Positions 4,485 through 63,286 of a DNA stretch of 64,000 nucleotides are shown here, piece by piece. A program made the position numbers and the translations under genes. Source of the stretch: Owenia fusiformis (Eukaryota > Annelida > Polychaeta > Sabellida > Oweniidae); contig CAIIXF020000004.1 of the NCBI GenBank assembly GCA_903813345.2, positions 24,241,985 through 24,305,984 on the forward strand, written 5' to 3'. The notes under the pieces were generated by a model. The model ran no database searches. It was not told the origin of the DNA and saw only the letters and a program-made list of their open reading frames with translations. Numbering within the stretch: the first letter of the stretch is position 1; each line of letters opens with the position of its first letter.

Positions 4485-4529
4485 TTCCACCCACCCCTCC
4501 TCCGACCACAACTCCAAGGCCAACCCGAA
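4485..4529 (+). CDS. Gene A exon: Pro/Thr-rich linker
   Basis: A 45-base exon between TTCCAG and GTAAGT encodes 15 residues (x-P-P-T-P-P-P-T-T-T-P-R-P-T-R). It matches exon 54489-54533 of gene C in length, sequence and phase (1-1). It is the first exon of gene A inside the window. Confidence 0.75.
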
Positions 4530-10500: not shown

Positions 10501-13500
10501 GCTGCGGTTATGCTCCATTGATTAAACAGGGGATCAAACAGCAGGGGATCAAACAAGTCCAACTTTCATTTATGAAAACATTTTGAACTAACTTTATGGC
10601 ACACTAATGACATCTTATATGAGTGTGCTGTACTAAAAGCATAGCTTTTAGATCCCCATTGGATCCCCTTATATTGGATTATCATAATCCTAATCCACGA
10701 GGAGTTCCTTATATATTTTAAGTGATGAAACATGTGTTCAAGTACAATGTAACTTTGCATGAAAATTGTAAAGAAAAATTAGGGACGATGGTGAAAATGA
10801 CGATTGTATTTTGAAAAAAGCTTGTTGATGGGTGGATTAAACATGGCTTATGAGATAATCCAATTGATCTTGAAACCATTCTTTGAATTTTTCTTAAAGA
10901 TTATACATTGGCCTTTCATATGCATTCATTTTTGTACAGCCAGAAACTACTAGAAAAAAATTATTTACTGTCAAAAATCTGTTGCGATACTTTCCCTCGC
11001 TCTTTGGCTTATGTTCTGCGATTTATATCAACATTCATTCGATATTGATTTAACGTAGAATGTAGATGGAGCGAATATGGCGTGGATAAATTTGGCTTAT
11101 GTTATGCGACTTATATCAACATTCATTCAATATTGATTTAACGTAGAATGTAGATGGAGCGAATATGGCGAGGAGAAATTTGGCTTATTTTCTGCAACTT
11201 ATATCGACATTCATTCAATATCGATTTAAATGTAGATGGAGCGAATATGGCGAGGAGAAATTTGGCTTATGTCCTGCGACTTATATCAACATTCATTCAA
11301 TATTGATTTAACGTAGAATGTAGATGGAGCGAATATGGCGAGGAGAAATTTGGCTTATGTTTTGCAACTTATATCGACATTCATTCAATATCGATTTAAA
11401 TGTAGATGAAGCGAATATGGCGATGAGAAATTTGGCTTATGTTATGCGACTTATATCAACATTCATTCAATATTGTTTTTTAACACAGAATGTAGATGGA
11501 GCGAATATGGCGAGGAGAAACTTGGCCAATGTTCTGCAACTTGTGGAGGTGGCATAAGAACAGTGACACGTATAAGATACAAGTTGTATGGCTATGCAGA
11601 GACCGGGGACCGAAATTGCTATGGTTCGAACACTGATGTGAGAACCCAATCATGTAATATTCAGCCATGTTGGGGGCCTCCGCCACCTCCACCTCTTCAA
11701 CCTACCCCGCCTCCCATTATAGGGAAAAGTGAGTAACCAGTCGAATCGTATCACTAATACTATACTAAACAATACCTCACTTCGGCATATTATAATTATT
11801 TAAAGGATATTGTTTAGATCAAATAAATGTAACCAATACAGAATCTGCACTAACACTCATATCAACATTTATCAAATATTGATTTAACGTAGAATGTAGA
11901 TGGAGCGAATATGGCGCGGAGAAACATGGCCAATGTTCTGCAAGTTGTGGGGGTGGCATGTTAACAGTGACACGTAAACGGACTAAATTATATGGCTATA
12001 CAGAGACTGGGGACACATATTGCTATGGCTCGGACTCTGTTGTTGTGAGAACCCAGTTGTGTAATATTCAGCCGTGCTGGGAGCCCCCACCACCTACACC
12101 TCCTCCAACTTACCCGCCTCCCGTCATAAGTGAGTAATCAATCGAATTACATGTATCACTAGTACAATGATAGTCAATATCGTAGTTAGGTATGACATAA
12201 ATTTTGAGAATGTATCTTTGGTCAAGCGAAAATAGATAAAACGATTACAGACTCTACACTATATATATATTTGTGATACTCCCTAGAACTGCTTGTTGTG
12301 AATTGAACAAAACATATTCGTGTTGGATGTAAATAATATTATAATCTATATTTCTATTCACAAGTTGGGTCTATAAAACTGGATCTGGTTAGGCGCTAGG
12401 CGATACGAACGTACCACCTAGAATGGCCAGATTTTTAGACCCAACTTGTGAACAGAAATATAGATTATAATATTATATTATAATATATAATTATAATATT
12501 ATTTATATTTATCTATATCCAGACCCTTTCATTAAGCATCAATGATAACAAAAACATTATATTACTTGACCCGATGAACTAATTTATCGATAAACAATAC
12601 ATATGGACATTTATATATTAATTTAGTACTCATACTGTGGACAATAAAAAATTTCAACCCATTCCCCACCTCCACCCACAGTTTTATAGACCCAAATATA
12701 TATATACCTAGTTTTAACTTATCAGTAGATCAACTTTATGAATAAATGTTCTTTGACTAACATATACACTGTATATCACTTAATTTGCTCTGGATGTATT
12801 GTATGACCATTTTAACTGTTCAATTCACACTTTTTAAAATTTTAACTTTTGAAAAAATGTTTCTGACTTACGTTGTATCTCTTTTAGCATTTTTTGGATG
12901 AGAATGTTGGATCATTCGAACATTTTCTAGTCTTATGCATGTTCAAAAGTGTTTTAACAAAAAACTTGTTTACTTGTTTCTTATAATTAAGGAGATCGCA
13001 TTATAATTAGATTATAAAGAAATAGAGAATGACATTTGATGGTTTAGTGAAAATATTCCTAGAATATGATGGTCAATTTTTCCAATTATTACCAAAAATA
13101 CTGTCTTAATTCGACATAACATCGAATATAGAATATATAATTATGTATATATTGAAAAATACCTAAAGGCAATTTCCAAATAGAGTGGATGATTCAATAC
13201 AATACAAATACAAGCCAGACTCATCACATCCTAATTAAAACTAATGTTTATACACTATAGACATGAGCTAAGGATAAGGGTATTGCCTCCGGAGGTCAAA
13301 GTTGCCGCTTTGTTGCAAAGATATAAAAAAAGTCCTGAACACTTTTCACACCTATCTAATGATATTATTATTCCCTTTCGTGTTTTGATGAATCGGAAAG
13401 TACATTCATGGCATTTCAAAAAATTTTCAAAATATAACATAATGCTTCTAGATTGCTACTGGGGAGGTTGGACCGAATGTGTATACGGTACTTGTGTTAG

Positions 13501-16500
13501 GAACCAATTACCTGCTGATGCGACATGTCGAATTCATGGTATTTCAAAATGTCAAAGAACCCGTCATTGCCATTGCACTGGAAAACGAACTGGTGTCGCA
13601 ACTTATCATCAATGCGCAGGTCTTTCGATCGAATATAAACACAAATCATGCTGCTTAGACTGCTACTGGGGAGATTGGACTGAATGGGTATACGGTACTT
13701 GCGTTATGAGTTATTCAGCTGCTACTACGGATTGTCAGATTCATGGAATTTCAAAATGTCATAGAACCCGTCAGTGTTATTGCAGTGGAAGTGGTGTGGC
13801 CGCTAATCATCAATGCACTGGTCTTTCGATAGAATATAAACACAAGGAATGCTGCTATAATCACTCATATACAACCCCTCCGCCTTATCCAACTCGTAAG
13901 TAACAACTTACTCGTAAGAATGTCGTCGCTACATTGAATGCCATTGCATTTGAAAATCCTTTCAATATATCTTTATGTTTTTAGACTGCTACTGGGGAGA
14001 TTGGACTGAATGGGTATACGGTACTTGCGTTAGGAGTCATTCAGCTGCTACTACGGATTGTCAAATTCATGGAATTTCAAAATGCCATAGAACCCGTCAG
14101 TGTTATTGTACTGGAAAACGAAGTGGTGTGGCCGCTAATCATCAATGCACTGGTCTTTCGATAGAATATAAACACAAGGAATGCTGCTATAGTCACTCAT
14201 ATACAACCCATCCGACTCATCCAACTCGTAAGTAACAACTTACTCGTCATTGCCATTGCTTTGGCTATCACCAATGCGTTGGTATTTCAATAGAATATAC
14301 AAACAAGGCATGCTGCTATAGCCAACCATATTCTACACCCCCTCCGACTCATTCACCTCGTAAGTAACACTCTACTTGTAAGCATGTCTACATACTTTGA
14401 TTTTTCATTATATACTTTTATATTAATTCACTCATTGATATCAATATAAGTACTCATTCGGTAATTTTACTCGCACAGATATTGATATTAACTCGTGGAT
14501 ATAAATGATATCACTCAAAATGAATTGGATATCCTATACTTATTACAACCCAAAATGAACAGAAATACATCCATTAGCGTTCATCTATTAGCACATTACT
14601 ATGGAAAAGTGGTGCCATCTTAATATAAAATGCTTATTAATGTTTATTTGTGTTCGTACTATTCAAATGGCAAATGGTGGCACAGGTGTATAAACGTATA
14701 CATATATTCATAAGCGTTTACTAAATAGAGAGGATAATATGCACGGACAACCTAAACATGAACCTGTGTTCATGCATACGCGTATAGGTTTTTCTAAATC
14801 TTCATTTTGAGCAGCAAAATAAGTGATATCACCGTATATACATTGATCGCCTATTAACACAAGTGCGTGAGAAATGACTCAACGAGATCCGCAAAATTCA
14901 AATGTATTGTAATGGTTATTTTTAAATGATTCATTGGTGTTTATTTTACAGGCTACTGGGTAAAATGCTTTAATATATTAAAGACAAAATAATATTTTTA
15001 CACTCTTTAATTTCTTATACTAAGGCTAGGTCTTGGGTTTCCATTTGACCATGATAAAATTTGTTTCCTCTTAATAACATTGAGTAAATATTTGAACACA
15101 GAAACTAATGGATCAGCCTATAGTGTGAGTTTCAGCAGACCAGACACCCAGAAATTTTTTATTTTGATCATAGGAATAAGGGGGTTTCTCGCAAAATTTA
15201 TGTCCGAAACCAAATATGATATTTATTTGGGGAAAATAAACATCACCGTCCTCTGATTCATTAAATAAAATGGTCACTGTGTGTGCTTATATTTTGTTTC
15301 GTTTTTTTTGTCTTTAGGTTTGAATACAATTGCCCTTTAATGATCTGTACAGTAGAACCTGCTAAGTGGAACACCTCACCTCATAAGTGGCACAGTTTTT
15401 TAAAGTCCTATGACCAATTTTCTACATGTAAATGAACCTCCGTAATAAGAACACAGAACGCCGCCAGATCGTTTGTAGTACGTACAGAAGTAGAGCTCAA
15501 TAGAAAATACTGTTACTTACAAAGGTTCTATTGTATTTCAAAAGGGTATTGTCGACTATACTCGCTTACCAGTAGTTTGATTTCATATGCACTATTTCAT
15601 TGGTCAACTCAATCAAACCCCTCACTTATGAGGTTGACCATCTTCGGATTCCAAGTTGGAGAAACTAAAGTCTTGAAAATCAAGCTATAGGCTGACTGGC
15701 CAGGTTGTTCTATTTACCTAGTTCATAGGAAGTTGATAATGTAGGCCGAATAATATGATATCCCATTCATTAAAATCCTGAATCAATCTCTGACAAAATA
15801 ATAAGACTTGGACAGAAAGTTCACCCTCTGATTCCAAGGTATGATATTCTACAACGTGGTTTATAAGGTTCGGGAATTTAGGAGTTCGTATAGAAGGACA
15901 GTAATAACATGTGAATCCAACCATATTGAAATGCAAAGAACATAATATTATTAGAATCAACATGGTAAACTCTCACACTTGGCTGATCATAATTATTTCT
16001 CATAACATCCTTTTTACTCAGTACTGAAGGGAAGTTGGAACGTCTGATATCTTTGGAATGTTAAGTATTATGTGTATTAGCCATAGGTATGTTGGTTCTG
16101 TGGTTTCAGTTATCTAAAAAAAGAAAAATTGGTGAAATAGACCTTTTAGTTCGGCGGATAATTGATTTTGCTTTATTTTTCAACTCAATTCAGGTATTTC
16201 GGTTAAGCCAATCACTGAATCATTTTGCCAAATCAATCTTGAGTCTCTTATACAGCATATGGAATATCATTTTTAGGTAACATAATATTACAGTGGTAAA
16301 GAAAAGAGAAACAGACATACCTTTCCTCCGACATGTTGAATTTTGCGGATCTTGAGTCTTTCCTCAAGCACTTGAAATAATAGGCGATCACTGTACATAC
16401 AGTGGATATATTCAGCTAAAACGTAAACGAAATAAGGAGTAGCATTGGCCTTTAAAGTAAAAAAAGATGAAATGGCCACAAATGATTGGCTGTAATACTG

Positions 16501-19500
16501 AATTTATTTGAACATGGCTATAGCCCAACAAACGATTTATTTGAGCCATTAAATGCATACACATTACACAACTATTCCTCAGATAAGCAACTTTGAAATT
16601 GTAAACATAAATATAAATACTTTTGCTTTTTTCATTTTTTCATGGAACAAAACTCAAGTCACTGCCAACTCAAAAAGCTAGAGTTTCGCGCCTAAATGGC
16701 CATATACATACATACATACATATACATGTTATGGGCATTGACCTTTAAAGTAAAAAATTAGTACCGTGGGTACTGGGCCCACATGGTGTTGCTTAAAAGT
16801 GAAAATAAAAAAGACGGGTATAATTTCTTGCAGATTTTTTGTGACAAAATTATTTCATACAACTACTCTTTACAAAGACATGGCTTTTTACAATGCAGGA
16901 CACGTGAACTTATTTGTAAAGCTAGGAAATGGGCCAAAAGTGAATTTCCTGAGACAAAAATGGTGGCCATTTTGAAATTAGGCGAGATTTTGAAGCAGGA
17001 GTCATAGGTTTTTTTCTTTATTGATGTTGAACAAAATTATTTTAAATCGGGAATCCTATCTACAGAGGATTTAAAAAGTGTTGACAGAGGTTTAAAACTT
17101 GCCACTTTTTTGGGCTAACTGAGAGACAGATGGACGAATCAATGTTAACTAAAATGGCTGAAAATAAAAAAAAACTGATATAATATTTTGCCGATTTTTG
17201 TAACAAAATTATTTAATACAACTACTCTTTACAGTGACATGGCTTTTTACAATGCAGGACAGCTGAAATTATTTGTAAAGCTATGAAATGGGCCAAAAGT
17301 GAATTTCGCAAGACAAGAATGGTGACCATTTTGAAAATAGGCGAGCTTTTGAACCAAGAGTCATAGGAGAGTTTTTTGTATTGATGTTGAACAAAATTAA
17401 CTTAAAACAGGAATCTTATCGACAGAGGGGGTTTAAGGCAAATGGTCCAAAAGTGGATTTTGCGAGACAGATGGACAAATCAATGTTAACTAAAATGGCT
17501 GAAAATAAAAAAAATGGATATAAGTTTTTGCTGATTTTTCGTAACAAAATTATTTCATACATCTACTCTTTACATTGACATGGATTTTTACAATGTAGGA
17601 CACTTGAAATTATTTGTAAAGCTAGGAAATAGGTCAAAAGTGAATTTCGCAAGACAAAATGGCGGCCATTTTGAAAATAATCGAGCTTTTGAGCCAGGAG
17701 TCATAGGGGAGTTTTCTGTATTGATGTTGAACAGAAATAACTTAAAACAGGAATCCTATCGACAGCGGTTTTTAAACGTGCCACTGTTGTTGACGGAAAA
17801 GTGGATTTCACAAGTCAGATGGACAAATCAATGTTAACTAAAATGGCTGAAATTAAAAAAATAAATATAATTTTTCGCTGATTTTTTGTAACAAAATTAT
17901 TTCATATATCTACTCTTTACATTGACACAGATTTTTACAATGTAGGACACCTGAAATTATTTGTAAAGCTAGGAAATGGGTCAAAAGTGAATTTCGCGAG
18001 ACAAAAATGGCGGCCATTTTGAAAATAGGCGAGCTTTTGAACCAGGAGTCATAGGGGAGTTTTCTGTATTGATGTTGAACAGAAATAACTTAAAACAGGA
18101 ATCCTATCGACAGAGGTTTTAAAACGTGCCACTATTGTTGACAGACAGACAGACAGACAGACGGACGGACGGACGGACGGACGGACGGACGGACGGACAA
18201 ATGAGCGATTGCAAAAGCTCACCATGTGAGCTAAAAAAATGAGATGGCCACAAATGATTGGCTGTAATAGTGAATTTATTTGAACATGGCTATAGCCAAA
18301 CAAAGGATTTATTTGAGCCCTAAAATGCATACACATTACACAACTTTTCCTCAGATAAGCCACTTTCAAATTGTAAACATAAATGTAAATACTTTTGCTT
18401 TTTAAGGCATTTTTTCATGGAACAAAACTCAAGTTACTGCCAACTCAAAAAGCTAGAGTTTCGCGCCTCAATGGCCATATAGAATTATTGAAACCGTTTA
18501 ATACAATTAAGTACAGTAAAGTTATGTAATCTCAACCTCACTCAGAATCTCCTGTGTTATAGGTTCATCGCAAGAAGAATACCCAACTGACAACATTGAA
18601 TTCACATTAAATTAACACGTTGAGGGGATTGTAAAACACGTTAAACTTGACGAGTTTTCATAATTTGTTGCGCACGCATCGCAATTCAAGTCCAGGTTTA
18701 CGTTTTCGTCGTCCAAAAGATGAAATCTTATCTTTTCTATTGTGGCTGTAACATTTTGGCGCCGACTTAACATATGCGTACTTGATCAAGCTTTTATTTA
18801 TTAGCACACTGCTGTGGAAAATTAAGGGCCATCTAAACATGTTAATGCATAATCAACGTTTATGAATTAGCACATGGTTGTGGTATATGGGGACCATGGA
18901 TGGTTGTTCCCGGTAAATGTGATCCACCAGCAGGTTGTACCCCATTGGACCCAACAGGTAGAAAACGCGAAATCCAAAATATGAGAGAGAAGCGGCAGTT
19001 TGTGTGTGTCATCATAACATACACATGTCAATTTGTAAGGCAATGTACACCATGTTACAAAGGATATAAGCACCAGGGATGCGTAGGAGTGTCATACAAA
19101 ACAGAAAATCGCACTTGCTGCAATCCAGGTATGGTGATCGATTTTTTGTTATGACTAATAGAAGAGGTACAGGGGTAGTTTAAATTGTAACAAACATTCA
19201 CGATTGTCAAAGGCCATAAAAGATTCTCAGAAATTCTCATCTCCAGAAGATAAAAAAAAACATCGGTATAGTTTACCATAGAAGGTTGATCAATATACAA
19301 AATAAGATGTCAACATCATCTTATTTTCAAATGGCTGCGAACGTGTGATAGGCACATAGAAACACATGAGGCTAAATCCTAAAATATAAGATATTATATA
19401 ATATTCAATCCTTTTGAGTGCAATAACTGTACCCTCTGTGTAAAGAAAAAGGTGCATGGTCAATACAATAATAATTTGTATAATTTTACTGAACTCTTCG

Positions 19501-20908: not shown

Positions 20909-20909
20909 G

Positions 20910-22845: not shown

Positions 22846-22903
22846 ATGCAGAGTAGAGTAAGCATCTTAACAGCGGCCCTAGCCATAGCGATGGTAGGAC
22901 TAG
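22846..22903 (+). CDS. Gene B exon 1: signal peptide
   Basis: ATG in ACACAATGC encodes M-Q-S-R-V-S-I-L-T-A-A-L-A-I-A-M-V-G-L and one base of Gly, then the donor GTAAGT. A basic start followed by a hydrophobic core is typical of a signal peptide. Cleavage probably falls near G-V-A / E-S-Y-A, encoded by exon 2. The start is supported by the same layout in gene C. Confidence 0.8.
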
Positions 22904-47361: not shown

Positions 47362-47392
47362 ATTTAATAGTGAATATTGTTAAAAACGTGTG

Positions 47393-47452: not shown

Positions 47453-48252
47453 CCCTTTGTTCAAAATACTACTTTTCTATTGGCTACTACTTTACACTCA
47501 GAATCTAACCTCGTTCTATTTCAGCAACTGCTAACAAAATGATCAGAAAATTATTTTCAATCTCATTCATACTTCAAAACGATAGAAAATATAAGTTACT
47601 GTTTAGCAAACGAGGCGCGAAAGTAAGCAATATGTAAGGATTGAACACAAAATGCAGCACAACTTATCCAAGATTGCATATTGGGGCGCGGTAAATATGG
47701 TCCATCCTATATAGGCACCCTTCTACAGAATATCTCAGTGGAGACAAAGTTCGAATGAGTACACCTCGCGTGCACGGTTTACCATTTTTCATGTCATTCC
47801 CATCCTTGGAATGCATTTGAATTTTTCCTTAGCTTTACAAGGGCCTTTGAGATGGCTGTTTTGGGCCCTTGAGATTATTTTGGACCCACTCTCATCACAC
47901 CCCAAACATAGGGATGCCACTTAATAACATCCTCTTGAACACAACCACGACCATTTCAAAAGAATTCAGTTCATGACCCCCGGAATATGCCTTGTTGTAT
48001 TTGAAGATTGGTCAGATGATGCATTACATCAGGATTGTATCTTTAACAGCATGACCCTAGAAACCTATGACAATTTCCAACAGAACATTCAAATTCACGA
48101 AAATTGCTGCCATGTTTGAACAAATATGAGACAAAATGAGACAAAATATTACTCTAGTTTTTAAATATGTAATCTGTTTTTGATTATACTGAAAATTAAA
48201 ACAAGTTATTCAAGAAAAAGTGACCCTTGAACAATTTTGTCTGGGCTACTAA

Positions 48253-50440: not shown

Positions 50441-50656
50441 ATTTTATACTTTTATTCAGTTGAATTAGTTGAAAAAATAGGCCGTCAAATAAATTTTTCG
50501 ATCTGTTCGGTTGTGTGTGTTTAAGGACTAATATATCAAAAGTTTTGAATTGTTTCAGTTGCTGTGAATTAAAAGCATGAAATACTCTATTTGACACATT
50601 GCAACGGTATTGTTATGTATAGTTGCTAACACGTCAATTTGTGCTTTTTCGACACA
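50440..50656 (+). promoter_or_regulatory. Conserved upstream region of gene C
   Basis: Shares CGATCTGTT, AGGACTAATAT, TTGTTTCAGTTGCTGTGAAT and TTCGACACAATGCA with the region before gene B, in the same order and spacing. The two genes are otherwise divergent, so the block is a candidate core promoter and 5' UTR. Confidence 0.45.
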
Positions 50657-50711
50657 ATGCATACTGGACGCATCTTTATTGCTGTCCTTGTCATAGGACT
50701 GGCACTATTAG
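50657..50711 (+). CDS. Gene C exon 1: signal peptide
   Basis: M-H-T-G-R-I-F-I-A-V-L-V-I-G-L-A-L-L and one base, then GTGAGT. A basic residue followed by a strong hydrophobic core; start context ACACAATGC equals that of gene B. Confidence 0.82.
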
Positions 50712-53700
50712 GTGAGTTAATATATCTTTTAATGAAATGGTAAAAATACAATCACTTGGAAATAATGATAATACCGCTCTGGTATTTCTTTCTAATATTT
50801 ACTAGTGTATTGTTTATGTTAAAGCTTTGATATTCATCCAACGATGGCTTTTCTTCGTAGTGCACTTTCTATTTACTTTTAATTTAGGTGTTTATTTTAG
50901 TTACATGTACCTTTTCTTTGGTCTGTTGTTCATCAGCATGATAAGAATCTTAGAGACCTGAATGACAAATTCAAATTCAGAAATATTACCAAAAGTCAGT
51001 CTTAACATTTAAAAATATGTTTAATTGGAAAATAACCAAAATGAGTTTATTTCGCCCAAATATAAACTTTAACCTTGGAACAAAATAGTAATCCCAGCTT
51101 TTATGATTATATATCGTCTTTATGTTCCAAAAGTTATATCGATATTCTTTAAAAAAGAATTATACATAACTGATACTAAGAAAGAACGAATGGAAATATT
51201 GATACGTTGAATCTACTTTTACAGCTTTACAGTAATATTTTGAAACATATTCTCAAATGTTTACTTTGATAAAGGTGAACTTTTAAAATTACTTCAGTAA
51301 TATTTTGACAAATAATGCAATAAAATTCCCAAATGGTCGTCAGTTTTGCTTTACATATATACAACTAAAGCTATATGGGTAAATAGCTTAATATATACAG
51401 GAATCAAGGTAACTGGCGTTCTCACTTAGTTATTTCTTGTTAAGACTTTCTAATTAGATTCACAGACTCCTTAATACAAGGGTCATTCGAAAAGTCTTGC
51501 ACGACAGCTTCTCAGTACTGCATTGCAAGGCCACGCACAGATTTTTTTGGAAAAGAGGGTATATCCTTTTTTTAAATTCAACTGATAAATTGTTTTTGAA
51601 TAGTTGATATTCCTATTGATTCGTTATGAATTGTTAACTGATTAAGATTCATTTAAATAGTACAGTATAGTGTACCAATATGTGACATCAGTATTGAAAA
51701 TATAAAATGTAATTGCATTATAGTTTCTGAGAGTTATGCTGGCAAGGGTGGAGGAAAGGGCAAGAAAAAGATGTGCAAGCCCTGCAAATCCAAATGCAAT
51801 TATGGAAAACGCTGCAAGAAAATCTGCAATCTGAAACCGGTATGGCTATTTATTGTATTATATTACAATTCGTCTTCTTAATATTGAACACGGGATATAT
51901 CCCGTATATCTACGGTCGTAGCCTTGCCCAAGTCGGTCTCTTTTACTTATCTTGATTTCTATTATGACCGCCTTGTACCAAAGAGAAAGCCACGTGCTTA
52001 ACCGACAGTTTGTTGATGTTGGTAAAATTTGACCATTCAACGACGGCCCTGTAGCGTTAGCTCATTATTATGCAGGGTCAAAAACAAGTACACTTTTCAC
52101 CGGGACTTTTCACGAACAAATCTTGCACGAATCTGAGCACGAATTCATCATAAAAATACAAATATTTTATCAGATAAATATCAATGAGAGTTTAGTGGAT
52201 GCCGGGGCATCGATCGGATAACCAAAGGTGAGAAGATTTCAACAATAAACGTTGAAACGATCGCCTAACATGTAGGCTTCGATCACCGATCGACGACAAC
52301 ATGACCCGCTAAATTGGACTAGGTCTTCGTGCATTTTCATAGCGAAATCAGTTTTAAATCAACATTGAATCGCATGATTTAATTTATATCAATGACTCTT
52401 ACCTTCCAATGTACATTTAATTACATAATATTATATATTGTATGTCTAACGAAACACTCGATCAGATCATTGAATTTCAAGTCGTAGATGTGAAGTTTGT
52501 TTTGTTTATGCGGCTCAACCTGATAACGTTTTGATTGGTCATTCAGCCTGAAGTCACACGTCGTGTCCACGCGATATCTGTCAATCAATAAGGTTTCGCG
52601 ATACCCCTGATAGCGTGGGTATTACGGAAATCTCGAAACCGTTGAATATTTCAGCATAATAACAGCGGAGATGTATTGGATTGTACAAGGCGGTAATAAT
52701 TCAAGATCGGATAAGTAAAAAAAATACCGACTTGGGCAAGGCTACTACGGTCGTAATTTACGTAATTAACCTTGAAGATAGACCCAGAAACCCCTCCTTG
52801 AAGGAGCCCTGTGTTCTTTTATGTGCACTTATACATAGACATACGTACACATCACAGCCTTTTGTACGAGTTGCGGACCACTCAGTCAAACACCCTGAAG
52901 TACTTCACGCAAACAAGCAAATTTAGTCTTGCCTGAACCGGGGATCAAATCCGGGACCTATTGCGCAGGAGGTACATGCGCTACCGCTGAGCTACACAGG
53001 TGGACTTTACTCAAGAATATAATACTTAATTTAACTTAAACTTTTAACATGGATTTCTGAAAAGTCACATGCACTTTTGTATTCGATTACAGACATTCGA
53101 CATTGCATTCTATCTTATCATTTCGAAACATGTCATAAATTTGTTTTTTGCACAATTATATTAGATTTATGTACATATATACTGTACTCCCGGTAATTTT
53201 CGCGCGCTACTATATTTTGAGCTTTTCGTTAGTTTTGAAAAATTCGCGAAAGGCAAAACCATTGGTTGAAGGAACAACCATGGTTGATATCAAAGCCGAA
53301 AGAGTGATCCTGTATGACAAATTCGCAGAATAGCCGCGAAATTTAAAAAAAATGAAAATTAGTGAAATATAATATAATTTGAAAATGTTACTAATATATG
53401 ATAACAATCAAGTTGTATCATTCTAGGTCATCATCAGTGTGTGATGTCAAATCTCACATGAAAATGACAAACTACAAAATAATAACGGAAAATAATCAAT
53501 ATTCCATCACCCCTATCAAATAACCTCTTTAATTCTATAATTACTCATACTCAGTATGGAAGATTAACTCATTTGACCCTTCTAAAAAGAATAGTCTGTT
53601 GTAATTTTGCTTCACTTGTTCAGCTCTTTAATTAAGGTGTGACATATCCTTGCTATGTTCAACAAAACAAATGCTTTAAAACAAGGATTTTCCCTATGCA

Positions 53701-56700
53701 TTGGTTTCCTTGTTTTTAGGGAACTAAATGTGACGACAAGTGTTGGAAGAATTGTATGAAAAAATCTAAACCGATGCCCGGTGAACTCCAATATTGCATG
53801 GATAAATGTAGAAGTGAGTAAAGTTTATTTGAAACATTTGAAAGTGCAGTTCTTTATTCTTATGTTTGAATCACCAGGGCCTATGACATTGTGCAATCCT
53901 AGAATTGATCCTGGTTGTTGTCGTGGTAATTATGCATTGGTTTTTAGTAACCATAAGAACCCAGCTTCAGAGAAGTCATATAACGTCGGCCTCTGACCTC
54001 CCCCCAGGGGGAAGGGGGATGTTAGACGTTGTTTCTTTTCACGTTAGATCATGGTTTTGGGATATATGGTCTACTTTTCTTATGACAGATTGACACTTAC
54101 AGTTTGCTTGTCTTGTTGGGTTTCTTTAAAGTTTTTAGTCACTTTCCCTTTGTCATTTGCGCTTATATAGTCCTCATCCTACTGCTCCTCCTCGGATTAG
54201 TAGAGACCGGCTTCATATCGTCACTCTGCGCCTGCTTCTAAGGTTCTATAGAAAACATTCCTCCTACTCCTTCAGAATCGTCAAAACTACTTCATTATTT
54301 GAAACAGTTTTGACATTGTCATCTTACTGATGATATGGACGAAACGAGCATTAGGTATGACTAATCCATAACAATTCGGCCTAGTGTTTGAATTGTATTG
54401 GAATTCTACTTTTTATATTCACTTGATATTTTATCAAGGGCTGTATATAGTCAGAAAACACATAGTCGATGTTTCCTTTCTATTCCAGTTCCACCTACCC
54501 CTCCTCCGACCGCAACTCCAAGGCCACCCCCAAGTAAGTACTGTATGTCACAATATGAAATCGTAACTTTATATTTCAATCAAAGCATCAGACTTTTAAG
54601 TTTCTATGGCATCCACATAATTTACGATGGATATAACACACTTTTGATTATACCTTATGACGAATACTCAAAACGTCCTTTCTTGTGCCTTGTGTGGTTG
54701 ACATCATTTTATTTCATGCTGAAAATTTCTTAAAAGTTCTATTTTCTCCTTACCTAGATTTTTACATATCTCAAGAAGTACCTTAGAAGTACATTTTCCC
54801 TTACTTCATATTACTTTCTCAGTAAGAACCAGGCATTATTTGAACAAAGCAGGAGTTTATCATGACCTTGCTCTCTCTAAAAATAAGTAGGTCAACACAA
54901 TTGCAAACAGAACTAATCCCCATTCAATGATTATTTAAATATGACTATTTATGTGTACAAAATATCAATCCAATGAGTGTATAGAGTGACGCAATCAAAC
55001 ATTAGGACATCTGCCAAATGGGGTTTATACATTTTGGAGACATTTTCTAAGACTGATAAAAAATGTACACTTTCACAGGAAGTGATACATACCTCCCAAA
55101 TCAACCAAAATATATTTATATCAGTAATCTTGAATGTTTTTTATTGTTATTTCTTGAAAATATACATCTTTTAACTACAATTTGATCCTAGATATTATCC
55201 CAGGGGTGTTTATAGCCATTCATTCTTTATCCAATATTGTCCTGGATTGTGATGTTGACTCTTGTTTGGGGGAAGGGAGGGGTTTTACACCCCATTTCTT
55301 TCACATTAGATCATGGTTCTGGCATATATAGAGTATATTTTTTTAAGTTTAAACTTAGAGCCTGCTTTTCTCGCTGGGTTTCTTAAAGGTTTTTAGTCTC
55401 CATCCTTTTGGCGCTTGTGCTAAGATATTTAACGTAGAATGAAGACTGAGTAATAATGGTGCAGCGAAAGGAGAAATTTGGCTTATGTTCTGCAACTTAT
55501 ATCAACAATCATTCAATATCGATATACGTAGAATGTAGATGGAGCGAATATGGCGAGGAGAAATTTGGCTTATGTTCTGCGACTTATATCAACATTTATT
55601 CAATATTGATTTAACATAGAATGTAAATGGAGCGAATATGGCGAAGAGAAAATTGACTCATGTTCTGCAAGTTGTGGGGGTGGCATAACAACATTGACAC
55701 GTAAAAGGACTAAGATATATGGCTATGCAGAGACTGTGGACACATATTGCTATGGTTCGGACACTGTTGTTGTGAGAACCCGATTGTGTAATATTCAGCC
55801 ATGTTGGGAGCCTCCACCGCCTCCACCTCCTCCAACTACCCCGCCTCCCATTATAGGGAAAAGTGAGTAACCATGCAGTCGAATCGTATCACTAAAACTA
55901 TACTAAACAAAATCTCAGTTCAGCATATCATAATTGTTTAAAGGATATTGTTTAGATCAAATAAATGTAACCAATACAGAATCTGCACTAACACTCAAAT
56001 CAACATTTCTCAAATATTAATTTAACGTAGAATGTAGATGGAGCGAATATGGCGCGGAGAAACTTGGCCAATGTTCTGCAAGTTGTGGGGGTGGCATGTT
56101 AACAGTGACACGTAAACGGACTAAATTATATGGCTATGCAGAGACCGGGGATCCAGAATGCTATGGTTCTGACACTGTTGTTGTGAGAACCCAATTGTGT
56201 AATATTCAGCCATGTTGGGGGCCTCCACCGCCTCCACCTCCTTCGACTACCCCGCCTCCCATTATAGGGAAAAGTGAGTAACCAGTCGAATTGCATCACT
56301 AAAACTATACTAAACAAAATCTCAGTTCGGCATATCATAATTGTTTAAAGGATATTGTTTAGATCAAATAAATGTAACCAATACAGAATCTGCACTAACA
56401 CTCAAATCAACATTTATCAAATATTGATTTTATGTAGAATGTAGATGGAGCGAATATGGCGCGGAGAAACATGGCCAATGTTCTGCAAGTTGTGGGGGTG
56501 GCATGTTAACAGTGACACGTAAACGGACTAAATTATATGGCTATACAGAGACTGGGGACACATATTGCTATGGCTCGGACTCTGTTGTTGTGAGAACCCA
56601 GTTTTGTAATATTCAGCCGTGCTGGGAGCCCCCGCCACCTACACCTCCTCCAACTTACCCGCCTCCCGTCATAAGTGAGTAATCAATCGAATTACATGTA

Positions 56701-59700
56701 TCACTAGTACAATGATAGTCAATATCGTAGTTAGGTATGACATAAATTTTGAGAATGTATCTTTGGTCAAGCGAAAATAGATAAAACGATTACAAACTCT
56801 ACACTATATATATATTTGTGATACTCCCTAGAACTGCTTGTTGTGAATTGAACAAAACATATTCGTGTTGGATGTAAATAATATTATAATCTATATTTCT
56901 ATTCACAAGTTTGGTCTATAAAACTGGATCTGGTTAGGCGCTAGGCGCCACGAACGTACCACCTAGAATGGCCAGATTTTTAGACCCAACTTGTGAACAG
57001 AAATATAGATTATAATATTATATTATAATATATAATTATAATATTATTTATATTTATCTATATCCAGACCCTTTCACTAAGCATCAATGATAACAAAAAC
57101 ATTATATTACTTGGCCCGATGAACTAATTTATCGATAAACAATACATATGGACATTTATATATTAATTTAGTACTCATACTGTGGACAATAAAAAATTTC
57201 AACCCATTCCCCACCTCCACCCACAGTTTTATAGACCCAAATATATATATACCTAGTTTTAACTTTTCAGTAGATCAACTTTATGAATAAATGTTCTTTG
57301 ACTAACATATACACTGTATATCACTTTATTTGCTCTGGACGTATTGTATGACCATTTTAATTGTTCAATTCACACTTTTTAAAATTTTAACTTTTGAAAA
57401 AATGTTTCTGACTTACGTTGTATCTCTTTTAGCATTTTTTGGATGAGAATGTTGGATCATTCGAACATTTTCTAGTCTTATGCATTGTGTTCAAAAGTGT
57501 TTTAACAAAAAACTTGTTTACTTGTTTCTTATAATTAAGGAGATCGCATTATAATTAGATTATAAAGAAATAGAGAATGACATTTGATGGTTTAGTGAAA
57601 ATATTCCTAGAATATGATGGTCAATTTTTCCAATTATTACCAAAAATACTGTCTTAATTCGACATAACATCGAATATAGAATATATAATTATGTATATAT
57701 TGAAAAATACCTAAAGGCAATTTCCAAATAGAGTGGATGATTCAATACAATACAAATACAAGCCAGACTCATCACATCCTAATTAAAACTATGTTTATAC
57801 ACTATAGACATGAGCTAAGGATAAGGGTATTTCCTCTGGAGGTCAAAGTTGCCGCTTTGTTGCAAAGATATAAAAAAAAAAGTCCTGAACACTTTTCACA
57901 CCTATCTAATGATATTATTTTTCCCTTTCAAGTTTTGATGAATCGGAAAGTACACTCATGACATTTCAAAAATGTTCAAAATATAACATAATGCTTTTAG
58001 ATTGCTACTGGGGAGGTTGGACTGAATATGTATACGTTACTTGTGTTAGGAACCAATTACCTGCTGATGCGACATGTCGAATTCATGGTATTTCAAAATG
58101 TCAAAGAACCCGTCATTGTCATTGCACTGGAAAACAAACTGGTGTCGCAACTTATCATCAATGCGCAGGTCTTTCGATCGAATATAAACACAAACCATGC
58201 TGCTATAGCCACCATTATCCTACAAACCCTCCGATGTATCCACCTCGTAAGTAACAACTTACTCGTAATGTCGTCACTACATTTATGTACTCTTAACATC
58301 AAACATATCTTTAGAAAACACTCAAAAATCTTATATATAATATTTAAACGAATCGGAACGTATCCTGATGCAATTGAATTTAAGATTCCCAAAATATATC
58401 ATTATGTTTTTAGACTGCTACTGGGGAGATTGGACTGAATGGGTATACGGTACTTGCGTTATGAGTCATTCAGCTGCTACTACGGATTGTCAAATTCATG
58501 GAATTTCAAAATGTCATAGAACCCGTCAGTGTTATTGCATTGGAAGTGGTGTGGCCGCTAATCATCAATGCACTGGTCTTTCAATAGAATATAAACACAA
58601 GGCATGCTGCTATAGTCACTCATATACAACCCCTCCGACTCATCCAAATCGTAAGTAACAACTTACTCGTAAGAATGTCGTCGCTACATTGAATGACATT
58701 GCATTTAAAAATCCTTTCAATATATCTTTATGTTTTTAGACTGCTACTGGGGAGATTGGACTGAATGGGTATACGGTACTTGCGTTATGAGTCATTCAGC
58801 TGCTACTACGGATTGTCGAATTCATGGAATTTCAGAATGTCATAGAACCCGTCATTGTCAGTGCACTGGCTATCATCAATGCAATGGTCTGTCAATAGAA
58901 TATACACAGAAGGCATGCTGCTATAGCCACCCATATTCTACACTCCCTCCGACTCATCCACCTCGTAAGTAACACTCTACTTGTAAGTATGTCTACATAC
59001 TGGTCGTTTTAGGGACATATAGATTGAATCTCGTTGTGGGTATCGTGGGTTAAACATGACATCATTATATAATTTTAATTCACTCATTGATATCAAAATA
59101 AGTATTCATTCGGTAATTTTACTCGCACAGATATTCATATTAACTCATGGATACAAATGATATCACTCAAAATGTACATTGGACATCCGATACTTATTAC
59201 GACCTTAAATGAACAGAAATACATCCATTAGCTATACAGCGTTTATTAATTACCACATTACAAAGTGGTGTCATCTTAATATAAAAATGCATATTAATGT
59301 TTATGTGTGTCCATACCATTCAAATGGCAAATGGGGGCACAGGTGTATATAGGTATACATAGGTTCATAAGCGTTTATTTAATATATTAGAGAGGATAAT
59401 GTGCAGGGACAACCTAGACATGAACCTGTGTTCATGCATACGCGTATAGGTTTTCTAAATCTTCCTTTTGAGCAGAAAAATAAGTGATATCACCGTATGT
59501 ACAATGATCGCCTAATATCACAAGTCCGTGAGTAATGACTCGACAAGATCCGCAAATTTCAAATATATTGTAATGGTTATTTTTAAATGATTCATTTGTG
59601 TTTATTTTACAGGCTACTGGGTTATTCTATTTAAAATGTTTTAAGATATTAAAGACAAAATAATATTTTTACACTCTTTAATTTCTTATACTAAGGCTAG

Positions 59701-62700
59701 GTCTTGGGTTTCCATTTGACCATGATAAAATTCCCTTCCTCTTAATAACATGGAGTAAATATTTGAACACAGAAATTAATGTATCGGCCTATAGTTTGAG
59801 TTTCAGCAGACAAGACACTCAGAAATATTATTTTGACCATAGGAATAAGGGGGTTTCTCGCAAAATTTATGTCCGAAACCAAATATGATATTTATTTGGG
59901 GAAAATCACCGTCCTCTGATTCATTAAATAAAATGGTCACTGTGTGTGCGTATATTTTGTTTCGTTTTTTGTCTTAAGGTTTAAATACAATTGCCCTTTA
60001 ATGATCTGTACAGTATAAGTCCTATGACCCATTTTCTCCATGTAAATGAACCTCCGTAATAAGAAAACAGAACTCCGCCAGATCATTTGTAGTACGTACA
60101 GAAGTAGAGCTCAATAGAAAATACGGTAAATAATATTGAGTCTTATTTCTATTATGATATGGCCGAAATATGTGAATTGGAACAGCTCCTAAGTGGAACA
60201 ATTTTTGAAACAACCAATGGCGTTCAACTTACATACAAAGGTTCTATTGTATTTCGAATGGGTATTGTCGAACATACTCGCTTACTAGTAGTTTGATTCC
60301 ATATGCACTATTTCATTGGTCTACTCAATCAAACCCCTAACTTATGAGGTTGACCATCTTCGAATTCCAAGTTGGAGAAACTTAAGTCTTGAGAATGAAG
60401 ATAGAGCTTGACTGGCCAGGTTCTATTTACCTAGTTCATAGGTAGTGGATAGTGAAGGCCGAATAAAATGATGTCCCATTCATTAAAATCCTGAATCAAT
60501 ATATGATAAAATAATAAGACTAGGACAGAAAGTTCACCCTCTGATTCCAAAGTATGATGTTCTACAACGTTGTTTATAAGGTTTGGGAATTTAGGAGTTC
60601 GTATAGAAGGACAGTAATAACATGTGAATCCCACCATATTGAAATGCAAAGAACATAATATTATTAAAATCCACATGGTAAACTCTCACACTCCACTGAC
60701 CATAATTATCTTTCATAACATCCTTTTTACTCGGTATTGAAGGGAAGTTGGAACGTCTGCTATGTTTGGAATGAATGTTAAGTATTATGTGTATTACCCA
60801 TAGGTATGTTGGTTTTTGGTTTTGGTGATCTAAAAACAGAAAATTTGGTGAAATAGACATTTTCGTTCGACGGATTATTGATTTTGCTTCATTTATCAAC
60901 TCAATTCAGGCATTTTGGTCAAGCCAATCACTGAATCATTTTGCCAAATAAATCCTGAGTCTCTTATATAGCATATGGAATACCCTCTGTAGGTAAAATA
61001 ATATAGCAGTGGTAAAGAAGAGAGAAACAAACATACCTTTCCTCCGACATTTTCAATTTTGCGGATGTTGGCGAGTCAAAGTTAATACACTCACGTACTT
61101 GAAATAATAAGCGATCACTGTACATACAGTGGATACATTCATCGAAAATGTAAACGAAATAAGGAGTGTCATTGACCTTTAAACTAAAAAAGAAGAGATG
61201 GCCAGAAATGATTGGCTGTAATAGTGAATTTATTTGAGCATGGCTATGGCAATCATTGCTCATAATCTATCTTTGGAAATATATGCTATTCCCCCCGGGG
61301 CTAGTTTACTCACAAACGATTTAATTTGAGCCATTGAGCGTGCTTGATCAAGCTTTTATTTATTAGCAAACAATTGTGGAAAATTAAAGGCCATCTAAAC
61401 ATGTCAATGCATTAATCTACGTTTATATATTAGCGCATGGCTGTGGCATATGGGGACCGTGGATGGTTGTTCCCGGTAAATGTGATCCACCAGCAGGTTG
61501 TACCCCATTGGATCCAACAGGTAGAAAACGCCAAATCCAAAATATGAGAGAGAAGCGGCAGTTCGTATGTGTCATCGTAACATACACGTGTCAATTTGTA
61601 AGGCAATGTACACCATGTTACTACGGATATAAGCACCAGGGATGCGTAGGAGTGTCATACAAAACAGAAAATCGCACTTGCTGCAATCCAGGTATGGTGA
61701 TTGATTATTTGTTATGACTTATAGAAGAGGCACAAGGGTAGTTTAAATTGTAACAAACGTTCACGATTATCAAAGGCCATTAAATTCACAAAGTGGGTAT
61801 AGTTCACCATAGAAGTTTGATCAATATAACACACGAGATGTCAACATTATCTTATATGTCTATTCAAATGGCTGCGAATGTGTGATAGGCACATAGAAAC
61901 ACGTGACACCAAATCCTAAAATACAAATATACGATATGATACAAATAACCAATCCTTTTGAGTGCAATAATTGTACCCTCTGTAAAGAAAATTAAAAAGG
62001 TGCATGGGCAATCAGAAAATTTTCAATATTTTGTATAATTTTACTAAACTCTTCGAAGCATATCGTGTAAATGTTTTACCATATCTACGAAATTCTTTGG
62101 CATTCTCAGTTCATTCTCAATGTCAAAGTATACATACACCGTACCTCTTATGTTTGGTATGATAACAAGGATATAACCTTGCATCTTTTTTTCTTTACGG
62201 AGTGTATTTATTTCTGAGGGTGTATTCCACGCAGCCGAAGGGCGATTGGAACCCACCCCTCAGAAATGTATACAGGTATTGCATGAAACAAGAATTCAAT
62301 ATTTGTTTTATTATATCACTGAACAAGTTATATTGTAATATTAGCCTGATTTTGTAGTTGCACTGAGATAAGTTCACCAAAATGTTATTCAAATTTTCTT
62401 TGGAACAACTTGCAATGTCGATTTCACTCTCATTTAAATACTCTTCACTCGTTCTAATCCTTCTCTGAGTAGTCTCTAAGTATGATCACTGATTAATCCA
62501 TTTAAAATCCTGTTTAATTTCAACTAAAATTGGTTTATATAAAACGTCCGACAAAAAGTTTCCAAAGGAAGAAATATCTTATGTGGTTTCCCTGGGAATA
62601 CATAAAATAAACATGTAACGTACACTTGTTGAATACCTGTATTTTTTCTTTACACACAAATTAAATACCCTGTGATATTTTTGGTCACATGATACATGAC

Positions 62701-63286
62701 CGAACAATCACAGGGCTGACTCATAGAAATAACTGATTGTTTGTAGGTCCAACAACAACAACAAGAACCACACCGACAACAACCACCCTGACGCCAACAA
62801 CGACTTCAACAACAACTACAACATCAACAACAACAGTAACACCAACTACAACTACAATTACTACACAGGCTTGTCCAAGATGGGGCGATTGGGGACAGTG
62901 GGGTTCTTGTTCTGAATCGTCTTGTCCTATTATTCCTGACCACCCCGGTTATCCGAAGGATACAAAGCGAAAACGACAGTCTTGTGTCTTAAAAAGGGAA
63001 ACAACTTGCACACGGAGCAAGTCATGTGAGCAATGTAATGGCAGCACTGGTGACTGCACTACCCCACAACCATTCGAAACAAAAATATTAATGTGCTGCG
63101 GTAAGAATATTTCGGACACAAAATTAAATTTTAAAGGATGTAACAATACCTATGTTAAATATTTACAATAAGTTGATTAATGACATAAACGTTTTCACGT
63201 TGACAAGTATTCCATAAAAATGAAATTTCTAAACCGTTAAATTTTATGATAACTTCTCTAGATGTTTTTTTGTTGCAGCGGATTGA
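50657..63286 (+). CDS. Gene C: secreted multi-module TSP1-like cysteine-rich protein
   Basis: Thirteen exons join in one frame: 50657-50711, 51724-51839, 53720-53813, 54489-54533, 55620-55862, 56031-56273, 56438-56674, 58001-58246, 58414-58650, 58740-58964, 61434-61691, 62747-63100 and 63279-63286. They total 2361 bases, about 786 residues. Order: signal peptide (1-18), Lys/Cys-rich part (19-88), Pro-rich linker (89-103), three thrombospondin type-1-like modules (104-184, 185-265, 266-344), three C-Y-W-G modules (345-426, 427-505, 506-580), a C-G-I-W-G-P-W module (581-666), and Thr-rich linker with C-terminal module (667-784). All borders are GT-AG; introns are phase 1 except the one after exon 2, which is phase 0. 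It is the complete reference for gene A. No transmembrane segment follows the signal peptide, so the product should be secreted. Confidence 0.85.
51478..51560. mobile_element. Mariner-like terminal fragment in intron 1
   Basis: ACAAGGGTCATTCGAAAAGTC resembles mariner-type ends and the start of 30171. No transposase nearby. Confidence 0.3.
51724..51839 (+). CDS. Gene C exon 2: Lys/Cys-rich segment
   Basis: Enters in phase 1 and leaves in phase 0. V-S-E-S-Y-A-G-K-G-G-G-K then a highly basic stretch with five cysteines (M-C-K-P-C-K-S-K-C, R-C-K-K-I-C). The donor is GTATGG. Confidence 0.75.
51893..52770. mobile_element. Element with about 85-bp inverted ends in intron 2
   Basis: GTAGCCTTGCCCAAGTCGG on the left faces CCGACTTGGGCAAGGCTAC on the right, and GACCGCCTTGTAC faces GTACAAGGCGGT. 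No transposase frame was seen inside. Confidence 0.65.
52930..53005 (-). repeat. tRNA-derived SINE head
   Basis: The minus strand reads GTAGCTCAGCGGTAGCGC (A-box-like) and, about 30 bases on, GGTCCCGGATTTGATCC (B-box-like), with tRNA-like spacing. The anticodon stem pairs poorly, so it is a tRNA-derived repeat rather than a functional tRNA gene. Confidence 0.6.
53186..53345. mobile_element. Short GTACTCCC-type repeat fragment
   Basis: ACTGTACTCCCGGTAATTTTCGCG matches the start of 21717-22165. A shared GGCAAAACCATTGG segment follows after a deletion. Confidence 0.55.
53720..53813 (+). CDS. Gene C exon 3: Cys-rich segment
   Basis: Phase 0 in, phase 1 out, between TTTTTAG and GTGAGT. K-C-D-D-K-C-W-K-N-C and Y-C-M-D-K-C add five cysteines to the N-terminal basic region. 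Gene B has no separate counterpart. Confidence 0.7.
54489..54533 (+). CDS. Gene C exon 4: Pro-rich linker
   Basis: A 45-base phase 1-1 exon (I-P-P-T-P-P-P-T-A-T-P-R-P-P-P) between ATTCCAG and GTAAGT. Confidence 0.75.
55431..55619 (+). repeat. Truncated TSP1 exon-start units in gene C
   Basis: One unit starts AACGTAGAATGAAGACTGAG (already carrying a stop) and a second starts CGTAGAATGTAGATGGAGCG. Both pass into CTTATATCAACA intron sequence without a donor. This is the short counterpart of the array at 11006-11488. Confidence 0.75.
55620..55862 (+). CDS. Gene C exon 5: TSP1-like module 1
   Basis: An 81-codon phase 1-1 exon. C-K-W-S-E-Y-G, C-S-A-S-C-G-G-G, D-T-Y-C-Y-G-S, L-C-N-I-Q-P-C-W and a Pro-rich tail with eight consecutive Pro. 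Confidence 0.85.
56031..56273 (+). CDS. Gene C exon 6: TSP1-like module 2
   Basis: An 81-codon phase 1-1 exon with the same plan (C-S-A-S-C-G-G-G, E-T-G-D-P-E-C-Y-G-S). Its Pro-rich tail ends P-P-I-I-G-K, as in exon 5. Confidence 0.85.
56438..56674 (+). CDS. Gene C exon 7: TSP1-like module 3
   Basis: A 79-codon phase 1-1 exon, nearly identical to gene A exon 11893-12129; one visible change is F-C-N for L-C-N. Confidence 0.85.
56876..57021. mobile_element. Short palindromic MITE-like element, gene C copy
   Basis: Counterpart of 12333-12478 at the same intron position. Confidence 0.6.
58001..58246 (+). CDS. Gene C exon 8: C-Y-W-G-G-W module 1
   Basis: An 82-codon phase 1-1 exon. N-C-Y-W-G-G-W-T-E-Y, nine cysteines, Y-P-T-N-P-P tail, donor GTAAGT. 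Shows what the first half of the fused gene A exon looked like with its own tail. Confidence 0.85.
58414..58650 (+). CDS. Gene C exon 9: C-Y-W-G-D-W module 2
   Basis: A 79-codon phase 1-1 exon. W-G-D-W-T-E-W, nine cysteines and G-S-G-V-A-A-N-H-Q-C, matching the second half of the fused gene A exon. Confidence 0.85.
58740..58964 (+). CDS. Gene C exon 10: C-Y-W-G-D-W module 3
   Basis: A 75-codon phase 1-1 exon. Shorter between C-Q-C-T-G and Y-H-Q-C, with nine cysteines. Its gene A counterpart is the relic at 14248-14359. Confidence 0.85.
58965..61433. other. Gene C intron 10
   Basis: Collinear with 14360-18870 minus the satellite. No exon found. The antisense frame at 60431-60676 is listed separately. 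Confidence 0.5.
60431..60676 (-). other. Antisense C2H2-like reading frame, gene C copy
   Basis: Counterpart of 15718-15963, still open over 81 codons with F-T-C-Y-Y-C and H-V-V-E-H-H preserved. Confidence 0.3.
61434..61691 (+). CDS. Gene C exon 11: C-G-I-W-G-P-W module
   Basis: An 86-codon phase 1-1 exon between ATATTAG and GTATGG, ten cysteines, almost the same as 18871-19128. Confidence 0.85.
61692..62746. other. Gene C intron 11
   Basis: Collinear with 19129-20306; nothing further seen. Confidence 0.5.
62747..63100 (+). CDS. Gene C exon 12: Thr-rich linker plus C-terminal module
   Basis: A 118-codon exon. About 45 residues dominated by Thr, then C-P-R-W-G-D-W-G-Q-W-G-S-C and the ten-cysteine module ending M-C-C. 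Donor GTAAGA. Confidence 0.85.
63279..63286 (+). CDS. Gene C terminal exon with stop
   Basis: After TTGCAG the exon adds A-D and TGA. Confidence 0.75.

Follow-up and report, generated by a model that had tools for sequence, protein, structure and literature searches.

The TSP1 repeat is known mainly from proteins of adhesion, guidance and complement, with solved structures that include repeats of Properdin, BAI1 and Semaphorin-5A. Another short cysteine module with a W-x-x-W motif, the CysD or WxxW domain of mucins, ends in CC and lies beside a Thr-rich, mucin-like stretch. In secreted invertebrate materials, the tube proteome of a tubeworm is enriched in TSP1 domains (PMC8476170) and an adhesive protein of a flatworm bears them (PMC8621496), according to the portions of these reports that were available. 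Here, a stretch of 64,000 nucleotides from the annelid Owenia fusiformis (the window; positions 24241985-24305984 of contig CAIIXF020000004.1, hereafter C4) was analyzed, with homology searches covering the whole 498.26 Mb assembly (GCA_903813345.2). It carries three tandem genes for predicted secreted proteins in which TSP1 modules are combined with three further types of W-rich cysteine module, denoted CYW, CGIW and CPRW, which appear from profile comparisons to descend from TSP1.

Comparison of these genes with the described systems reveals both likenesses and differences. Their plain TSP1 modules resemble the Pfam family PF00090 TSP_1 (relatives PF19028 TSP1_spondin and PF19030 TSP1_ADAMTS), as judged from module b of gene 3, which matches above the cut-off, whereas CYW, CGIW and CPRW have eight to ten cysteines instead of six, a CC end and longer loops (the first loop in the case of CYW), often with Lys-Arg (KR) sites. 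The repeats of Properdin, BAI1 and Semaphorin-5A are the nearest structural neighbors of a CGIW model among the matches listed, yet at Z scores of 3.6 or less and sequence identities of 8-22%, and to our knowledge no architecture is shared between these proteins and the genes described here. Identity with mucin CysD was considered as a candidate and dropped: no mucin family occurs among the Pfam matches to E 1-5 (a CysD model being presumably in the library), and the profile kinship found is with TSP1. The annelid tube and flatworm adhesive proteins are similar in being secreted invertebrate materials that use TSP1 domains, but they have LamG, VWA, chitin-binding, TIL, vWD and C8 partners, none of which was noticed in these genes, and the accessible parts of their descriptions contain no CYW, CGIW or CPRW module (PMC8476170, PMC8621496).

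Gene structure of the tandem array

The original prediction of three tandem genes on the + strand was borne out, with all 31 coding exons placed in the window having the expected AG and/or GT border and no internal stop in the readings of any of the three genes. Gene 2 (22846-41243, 627 amino acids) and gene 3 (50657-63286, 786 amino acids) are each complete from the initial Met to the stop codon, with all splice sites correct, while gene 1 encodes 599 amino acids within the window and has its 5′ end outside. The bounds given in the original prediction coincide with exon landmarks: position 4485 is the first base of the gene 1 Pro-rich exon and 63286 the last base of the gene 3 stop codon. All exon junctions are in phase 1, with the sole exception of the phase 0 join between the two basic-Cys exons of gene 3, so that the gain, loss or exchange of an exon leaves the frame intact. 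Each gene closes with a tiny terminal coding exon (CC-x-x-stop), followed about 100 bases downstream by AATAAA. The exons are listed below; those in the window were all included in the splice check, and signal peptides were called by eye.

Gene 1
C4:24241386-24241443, upstream of the window (~540 bp): signal-peptide exon
4485..4529, +: Pro-rich linker exon
11489..11728, +: TSP1 exon a
11893..12129, +: TSP1 exon b
13452..13895, +: fused exon with two CYW modules
13985..14227, +: CYW module exon
18871..19128, +: CGIW module exon, two KR sites
20307..20630, +: Thr-rich linker and CPRW module exon
20792..20799, +: last coding exon (CCVP stop), splice check run to 20798; AATAAA at 20903
Gene 2
22846..22903, +: signal-peptide exon
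32552..32677, +: basic Cys exon
32870..33157, +: TSP1 exon a
33379..33558, +: TSP1 exon b
34376..34603, +: TSP1 exon c
35115..35351, +: TSP1 exon d
35708..35911, +: single CYW-type module (CQWGPW), eight Cys
37899..38120, +: CGIW module exon, one KR site; structure model m8a789eb6e5f9
40778..41110, +: Lys/Thr-rich linker and CPKW module exon
41236..41243, +: last coding exon (CCQI stop); AATAAA at 41334
Gene 3
50657..50711, +: signal-peptide exon, identical in the upstream gene D
51724..51839, +: basic Cys exon 1, without Pfam match
53720..53813, +: basic Cys exon 2, without Pfam match
54489..54533, +: Pro-rich linker exon
55620..55862, +: TSP1 exon a
56031..56273, +: TSP1 exon b, Pfam TSP_1 at 24.6 bits (cut-off 21.6)
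56438..56674, +: TSP1 exon c
58001..58246, +: CYW module 1
58414..58650, +: CYW module 2
58740..58964, +: CYW module 3
61434..61691, +: CGIW module exon, two KR sites
62747..63100, +: Thr-rich linker (29 Thr/41) and CPRW module exon
63279..63286, +: last coding exon (CCAD stop); AATAAA at 63391

Gene 3 encodes, in order, a signal peptide, two basic Cys exons, a Pro linker, three TSP1 modules, three CYW modules, CGIW, and a Thr linker with CPRW. The order in gene 2 is signal peptide, one basic Cys exon, four TSP1 modules, one CYW-type module, CGIW, and a Lys/Thr linker with CPKW; in gene 1, it is signal peptide, Pro linker, two TSP1 modules, three CYW modules (two of them fused in one exon), CGIW, and a Thr linker with CPRW. 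Thus, the part of the predicted common order that runs from TSP1 through the W-rich Cys module(s), CGIW and the Thr-rich linker to CPRW or CPKW is present in all three genes. Other elements that had been expected in every gene are not: neither a signal peptide nor a basic Cys segment of gene 1 lies inside the window, its signal-peptide exon being upstream and basic-Cys exons being absent, and gene 2 has one rather than three modules of the first W-rich type and a linker that is rich in Lys as well as Thr. The W-x-x-W motif, ascribed to the family as a whole, holds for the non-standard modules, whereas W-[SG]-[EDN]-Y stands in its stead in all nine TSP1 modules of the window.

Relationship of the W-rich modules to TSP1

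Profiles were built from samples of the copies in this genome, namely 60 CYW, 11 CGIW, 7 CPRW and 16 TSP1 sequences. The module sets omit exact duplicates and loci L001-L006 and include copies missed by the search patterns and added by hand (four CYW, five CGIW and three CPRW, with one CYW, at locus L016, retrimmed), while the CGIW set leaves out whole copies at L005 (two KR sites) and L043 (one KR site) and a truncated copy at L044 (one KR site). The TSP1 set comprises the nine modules of the window and seven of locus L023, and seven further sequences were added for a later comparison, giving 23. Alignment A5 contains 32 of the 60 CYW sequences, and alignment A6 contains 10 of the 11 CGIW and 4 of the 7 CPRW sequences.

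The plain TSP1 modules belong to a named family. Module b of gene 3, the one of the window's nine that was scanned against Pfam, matches PF00090 TSP_1 with 24.6 bits against a curated cut-off of 21.6, and the remaining eight align with it; six cysteines occur in 14 of the 16 sampled modules, and C-x-x-S/T-C in 14 of 16. The W-rich modules, in agreement with the original prediction, do not match named families. No TSP_1 match at E≤1 was obtained in Pfam for any of 32 CYW or 14 CGIW/CPRW sequences, which gave only stray matches (E 0.02-0.38) to CX9C, zf-CCCH, Tsg_N, TMEM213, LTI65 and ADAMTS_C. No credible sequence match was found in the PDB either: the profile search gave none with A5, and the two obtained with A6, both to fungal transcription factors, were weak (E 0.17 and 0.18). 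The basic Cys segment of gene 3 likewise had no match in the Pfam scan. In the open-licence literature searched, as far as its text was available, no description of CYW-, CGIW- or CPRW-type modules was found.

Profile-to-profile comparison supported the suspected remote relationship to TSP1 directly for CYW and indirectly for the other two types. The CYW and TSP1 profiles aligned with an hhalign score of 32.0, compared to a best of 19.2 in 200 column shuffles, and with the 23 TSP1 sequences the score rose to 42.8 (probability 96%, 56 aligned columns), compared to a best of 20.1 in 100 Cys-preserving shuffles and 13.8 for the reversed profile. A Trp, R-x-R, C-x-G and the final Cys are shared in the same order by both module types. 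On this profile evidence, CYW is clearly a remote TSP1 relative. CYW is in turn linked to CGIW (24.2, shuffle best 21.4) and CPRW (26.8, shuffle best 21.5), and these two to each other (34.8, shuffle best 26.6), with none of the three scores reached in any of 200 shuffles. Since the direct profile links of CGIW and CPRW to TSP1 do not rise above shuffles, their kinship with TSP1 is indirect, by way of CYW.

Structure prediction gives a weak hint in the same direction for CGIW. In a model of the gene 2 module (m8a789eb6e5f9; predicted local distance difference test score, pLDDT, 78.5; built from three sequences), TSP1 repeats are the top four VIA matches (Z 3.6-3.2) and 16 of the 22 among the matches listed; in Foldseek, 16 TSP1-repeat chains occur among the best 50 matches listed, none of them significant. 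The CYW model shows three long strands at a pLDDT of 66, too poor to use.

It is also conceivable that CYW, CGIW and CPRW are small disulfide-rich folds of separate origin that have converged on the W-x-x-W spacing of TSP1, which would fit both the lack of Pfam and PDB sequence matches and the nonsignificant direct links of CGIW and CPRW to TSP1. However, the margin of the CYW-TSP1 score over its Cys-preserving and reversed-profile controls and the ordered set of common positions argue against convergence, making it a very improbable explanation. Descent of all three W-rich module types from TSP1 is the reading adopted below.

Duplication, selection and family size

The array contains traces of recent rearrangement. 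Window bases 1-3697 and 3771-4014 match intron 1 of gene 2 at 99.5-100% identity, while the sequence from base 4016 onward shares 99.8% identity across 2.5 kb with gene D, a gene lying upstream (from C4:24228894), and 92% identity with gene 3. The 5′ exons of gene D (signal peptide, two basic-Cys and Pro exons at C4:24225520-24229408) are of the gene 3 type, with no mismatch to gene 3 in the signal peptide, zero and one in the basic-Cys exons, and four in the Pro exon; the signal-peptide exon of gene 1 is nearly the same as that of gene 2. The simplest history is that gene 1 is an in-frame chimera produced by recent tandem duplication, in which the junction at 4014/4016 would have joined a gene 2-type signal peptide to the body of gene D. 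The frame was kept across the junction because the joined exons share phase 1, and the basic-Cys exons of both source genes fall outside the copied parts. A second large and recent duplication relates window positions 41705-54674 to C4:24216674-24229538 at 98.4-99.4% identity, including a retroelement.

Several smaller features of the array were also observed. Positions 11003-11542 and 55427-55584 contain tandem units of ~88 bp, each of which combines an acceptor site with the opening 17-18 codons of a TSP1 exon and has no visible donor. The TSP1 model scored five such truncated copies, four of them in gene 1 and the fifth in gene 3, and the units are possible decoy acceptors. In the exon with two CYW modules, the old intron acceptor (13655-13665) is seemingly translated as Leu-Asp, suggesting that the intron was probably lost through deletion. 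A CYW relic consisting of the 3′ half only (14242-14316) directly follows the last CYW exon of gene 1. Between genes 2 and 3, the − strand carries retroelement-like open reading frames (ORFs; 43655-47379) of reverse transcriptase/RNase H-like and tyrosine-recombinase-like types, presumably from a DIRS-type element, and an ORF at 29495-29854 inside intron 1 of gene 2 is taken to resemble a Harbinger-type transposase.

The coding sequence of genes 1 and 3 is constrained. Over eight exons, the synonymous divergence (dS) is 0.157 and the nonsynonymous divergence (dN) 0.075, for a dN/dS of 0.48 and no sign of positive selection in aggregate. By exon, dN/dS is 0.14 for CGIW, 0.30 and 0.42 for TSP1, 0.48-0.89 for CYW and 0.57 for CPRW; the 14-codon Pro linker, at 1.51, is the one exon of the eight that is not below 1. 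This constraint, together with paralogues outside the window at E = 8e-54 (CYW), 1e-58 (CGIW) and 2e-28 (CPRW), contradicts a chance origin of the modules.

The same observations bear on whether part of the array, gene 1 above all, is decaying duplicate DNA rather than working genes. The CYW relic, the truncated TSP1 exon starts at 11003-11542, the lack of basic Cys exons in gene 1 and the direct passage from its signal peptide into the Pro-rich linker could all be read in this way, but the eight window exons of gene 1 are open, its splice sites are intact and its frame survived the chimeric junction. The dN/dS of 0.48 also speaks against decay, though much of that history may precede the recent duplication. 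Decay is judged unlikely.

Recent duplicates that are 98.4-99.8% identical, a chimeric gene with its frame intact and differences in module number would also be expected of a diversified recognition or immune family, that is, secreted TSP1-rich binders of microbes or of self/non-self ligands that are varied by tandem duplication and exon shuffling. In cnidarians and sea slugs, TSP1 proteins have been proposed to recognize symbionts or plastids, in the available part of the source (PMC7663992). This explanation is weakened by the constraint between genes 1 and 3, where dN/dS exceeds 1 in nothing but a 14-codon linker. No membrane anchor or known recognition domain was noticed either, although no systematic search was made, and the Thr-rich linker, basic Cys segment and KR-bearing loops would be atypical of receptors. 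A recognition role therefore seems improbable, and the material role set out in the next section is preferred to it.

The family extends well beyond the window. A single CYW query found 78 places at E≤1 and 69 at E≤0.001, distributed over C4, C9, C12 and the small contigs C218 and C292 (25 kb each); the 69 count the window's own exons and two relic pieces, and the small contigs may repeat chromosomal copies. With a query derived from C12, 35 places were found at E≤0.001. CGIW occurs at 19 places at E≤1, 15 of them below 1e-7, and CPRW at 10 places at E≤1, nine of them below 1e-5 (eight on C4 and one on C218). By our own grouping of match positions, approximately nine similar genes or gene fragments, including the three of the window, lie at C4:24.09-24.33 Mb. 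At C9:13.03-13.06 Mb, a partial CYW piece and a TSP1 exon are followed by four TSP1 exons, four CYW exons and then CGIW, after which no CPRW was found in the stretch searched to 13.062 Mb.

Two loci elsewhere show the modules in other company. At C12:6483120-6492360 (L020), CYW exons alternate with another Cys module (...CCMDGKWYVPLGGRDYT...) that had no Pfam match above cut-off in the two copies scanned. At C4:11457400-11467300 (L063), two long ORFs (1117 and 374 amino acids), probably a mobile element, adjoin a CPRW exon. All places found in the searches are on C1-C12, apart from some on C35, C46, C218 and C292, and a search for mitochondrial COX1 found no match. Apart from this family, a Hox-like cluster was noted at C1:17.97-18.47 Mb, in which one gene has KLTGP after the homeodomain, taken here to be the Lox5 signature and in keeping with a lophotrochozoan; at one end of the cluster (L059; C1:17970400-17971100), two homeodomains, presumably of posterior type, lie ~350 bp apart. 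The position on C1 is consistent with the published account of O. fusiformis, which places the Hox cluster on chromosome 1 and Post1 away from it (PMC9977687).

Proposed extracellular role and significance

The cysteine and dibasic features of the modules are distinctive. Of 60 CYW modules, 44 contain nine cysteines, eight contain ten and eight contain eight, and the recurring odd number suggests that one cysteine of a nine-Cys module may be free for a bond outside the module. KR or Arg-Arg (RR) sites exceed expectation in CGIW (29 observed, 8.7 expected), CPRW (16 and 3.8) and CYW (59 and 37.1), in each case at a level reached by none of 1000 shuffles, whereas in TSP1 modules 8 sites compare to 5.9 expected, a level reached by 247 of 1000 shuffles. 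In 10 of the 11 CGIW modules, a segment of 7-12 residues that are often acidic lies between two cysteines and is flanked by a pair of KR sites; one of these ten segments itself begins with a further KR. The sole stretch of at least three residues with pLDDT below 50 in the CGIW model of gene 2 (residues 27-30) contains or adjoins the KR site, whose position was read by eye. Among CYW modules, 29 of 60 carry a KR or RR in the loop that precedes the final three cysteines. The nine-cysteine majority of CYW and the concentration of KR sites in loops are new here.

Other features concern composition and the modification of Trp. Beyond its presumed signal peptide, the gene 3 chain contains 75 Cys among 762 residues (9.8%), as befits the disulfide-rich, extracellular product that had been predicted, and it has a net positive charge and 29 Thr among the 41 residues of its linker. 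W-x-x-W/C is present in 57 of 60 CYW, all 11 CGIW and all 7 CPRW modules, and exon matches to Dpy19, a C-mannosyltransferase family, were found on C7 and C11. In the available portions of two reports, C-mannosylation places mannose on the first Trp of W-x-x-W/C (PMC8433626) and aids the folding and correct disulfide formation of TSP1 (PMC6954052).

Starting from the observed anatomy, CYW homology, copy number, and KR and Cys statistics, a secreted, convertase-trimmed, Trp-mannosylated and disulfide-cross-linked extracellular material of tube, mucus or cuticle is proposed with about an even chance of being correct. After secretion, the Trp-rich modules would be C-mannosylated, the TSP1 modules O-fucosylated and the linker O-glycosylated. 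Proprotein convertases would then cut KR sites in exposed loops, giving chains held together by disulfides, and the odd cysteine of most CYW modules would link chains into a cross-linked extracellular material. Such a role is favored ahead of recognition or matrix signaling, in a judgment about evenly poised, because of the signal peptide, the high Cys content, the Thr linker, W-x-x-W, the charge, the use of TSP1 in tube and adhesive proteins, and Dpy19.

A number of results count against this proposal. The direct profile scores of CGIW and CPRW with TSP1 (16.6 and 16.0) were reached by 1-3 of 100 shuffles per set; with CGIW and CPRW merged, the score of 15.5 was reached by none of 100 shuffles, yet it involves five aligned columns at a probability of 3%. 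All structural matches are weak, with VIA Z scores of 3.6 or less for CGIW; its best Foldseek match is an RNase P subunit (E 0.75), with E 2.5 for a TSP1 repeat and none below 0.001, and the CYW model has only unrelated folds, with no TSP1 repeat, among the Foldseek and VIA matches listed. The number of cysteines is even in 16 of 60 CYW modules, 31 of 60 lack KR/RR in the loop before the last three cysteines, and CGIW copies of the gene 2 type (window 37904, L043 and the truncated L044) have one KR site, not two. Finally, since TSP1 proteins are also at work in guidance, in immunity and in the regulation of matrix, the presence of these domains does not imply a material role.

Indeed, these could be ordinary secreted TSP1 proteins of matricellular or signaling-modulating function, with the altered modules reflecting lineage-specific drift and having no structural role. 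The presence of standard TSP1 modules with the consensus for O-fucosylation, and of abundant TSP1 sequence across the genome (1006 candidates, 150 of them scored), is consistent with this explanation. On the other hand, the special architecture recurs in many paralogues along with the odd Cys and KR features, suggesting selection for a shared property, and drift is considered a minor possibility, on a par with recognition.

The extracellular material reading can be extended, in a more speculative form that is itself unlikely, to CGIW as a two-chain module. Just as insulin loses its C-peptide, convertases would excise the 7-12-residue segment between the KR sites, disulfides would join the two halves, and free CYW cysteines would allow self-assembly of a cross-linked material; the excision might possibly also release small peptides in bulk. 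If true, a two-chain CGIW combined with CYW cross-linking would be a use of the TSP1 fold for which no description was found in the literature searched.

The array is a case in which uniform phase-1 exons visibly yield an in-frame chimeric gene through tandem duplication. If the interpretation given here is right, one animal lineage has remodeled TSP1 into several extra disulfide-rich module types, within a large gene family that duplicates in tandem and escapes Pfam. CYW, CGIW and CPRW provide concrete sequences to seek in tube, mucus and cuticle proteomes, as well as new domain models for libraries.

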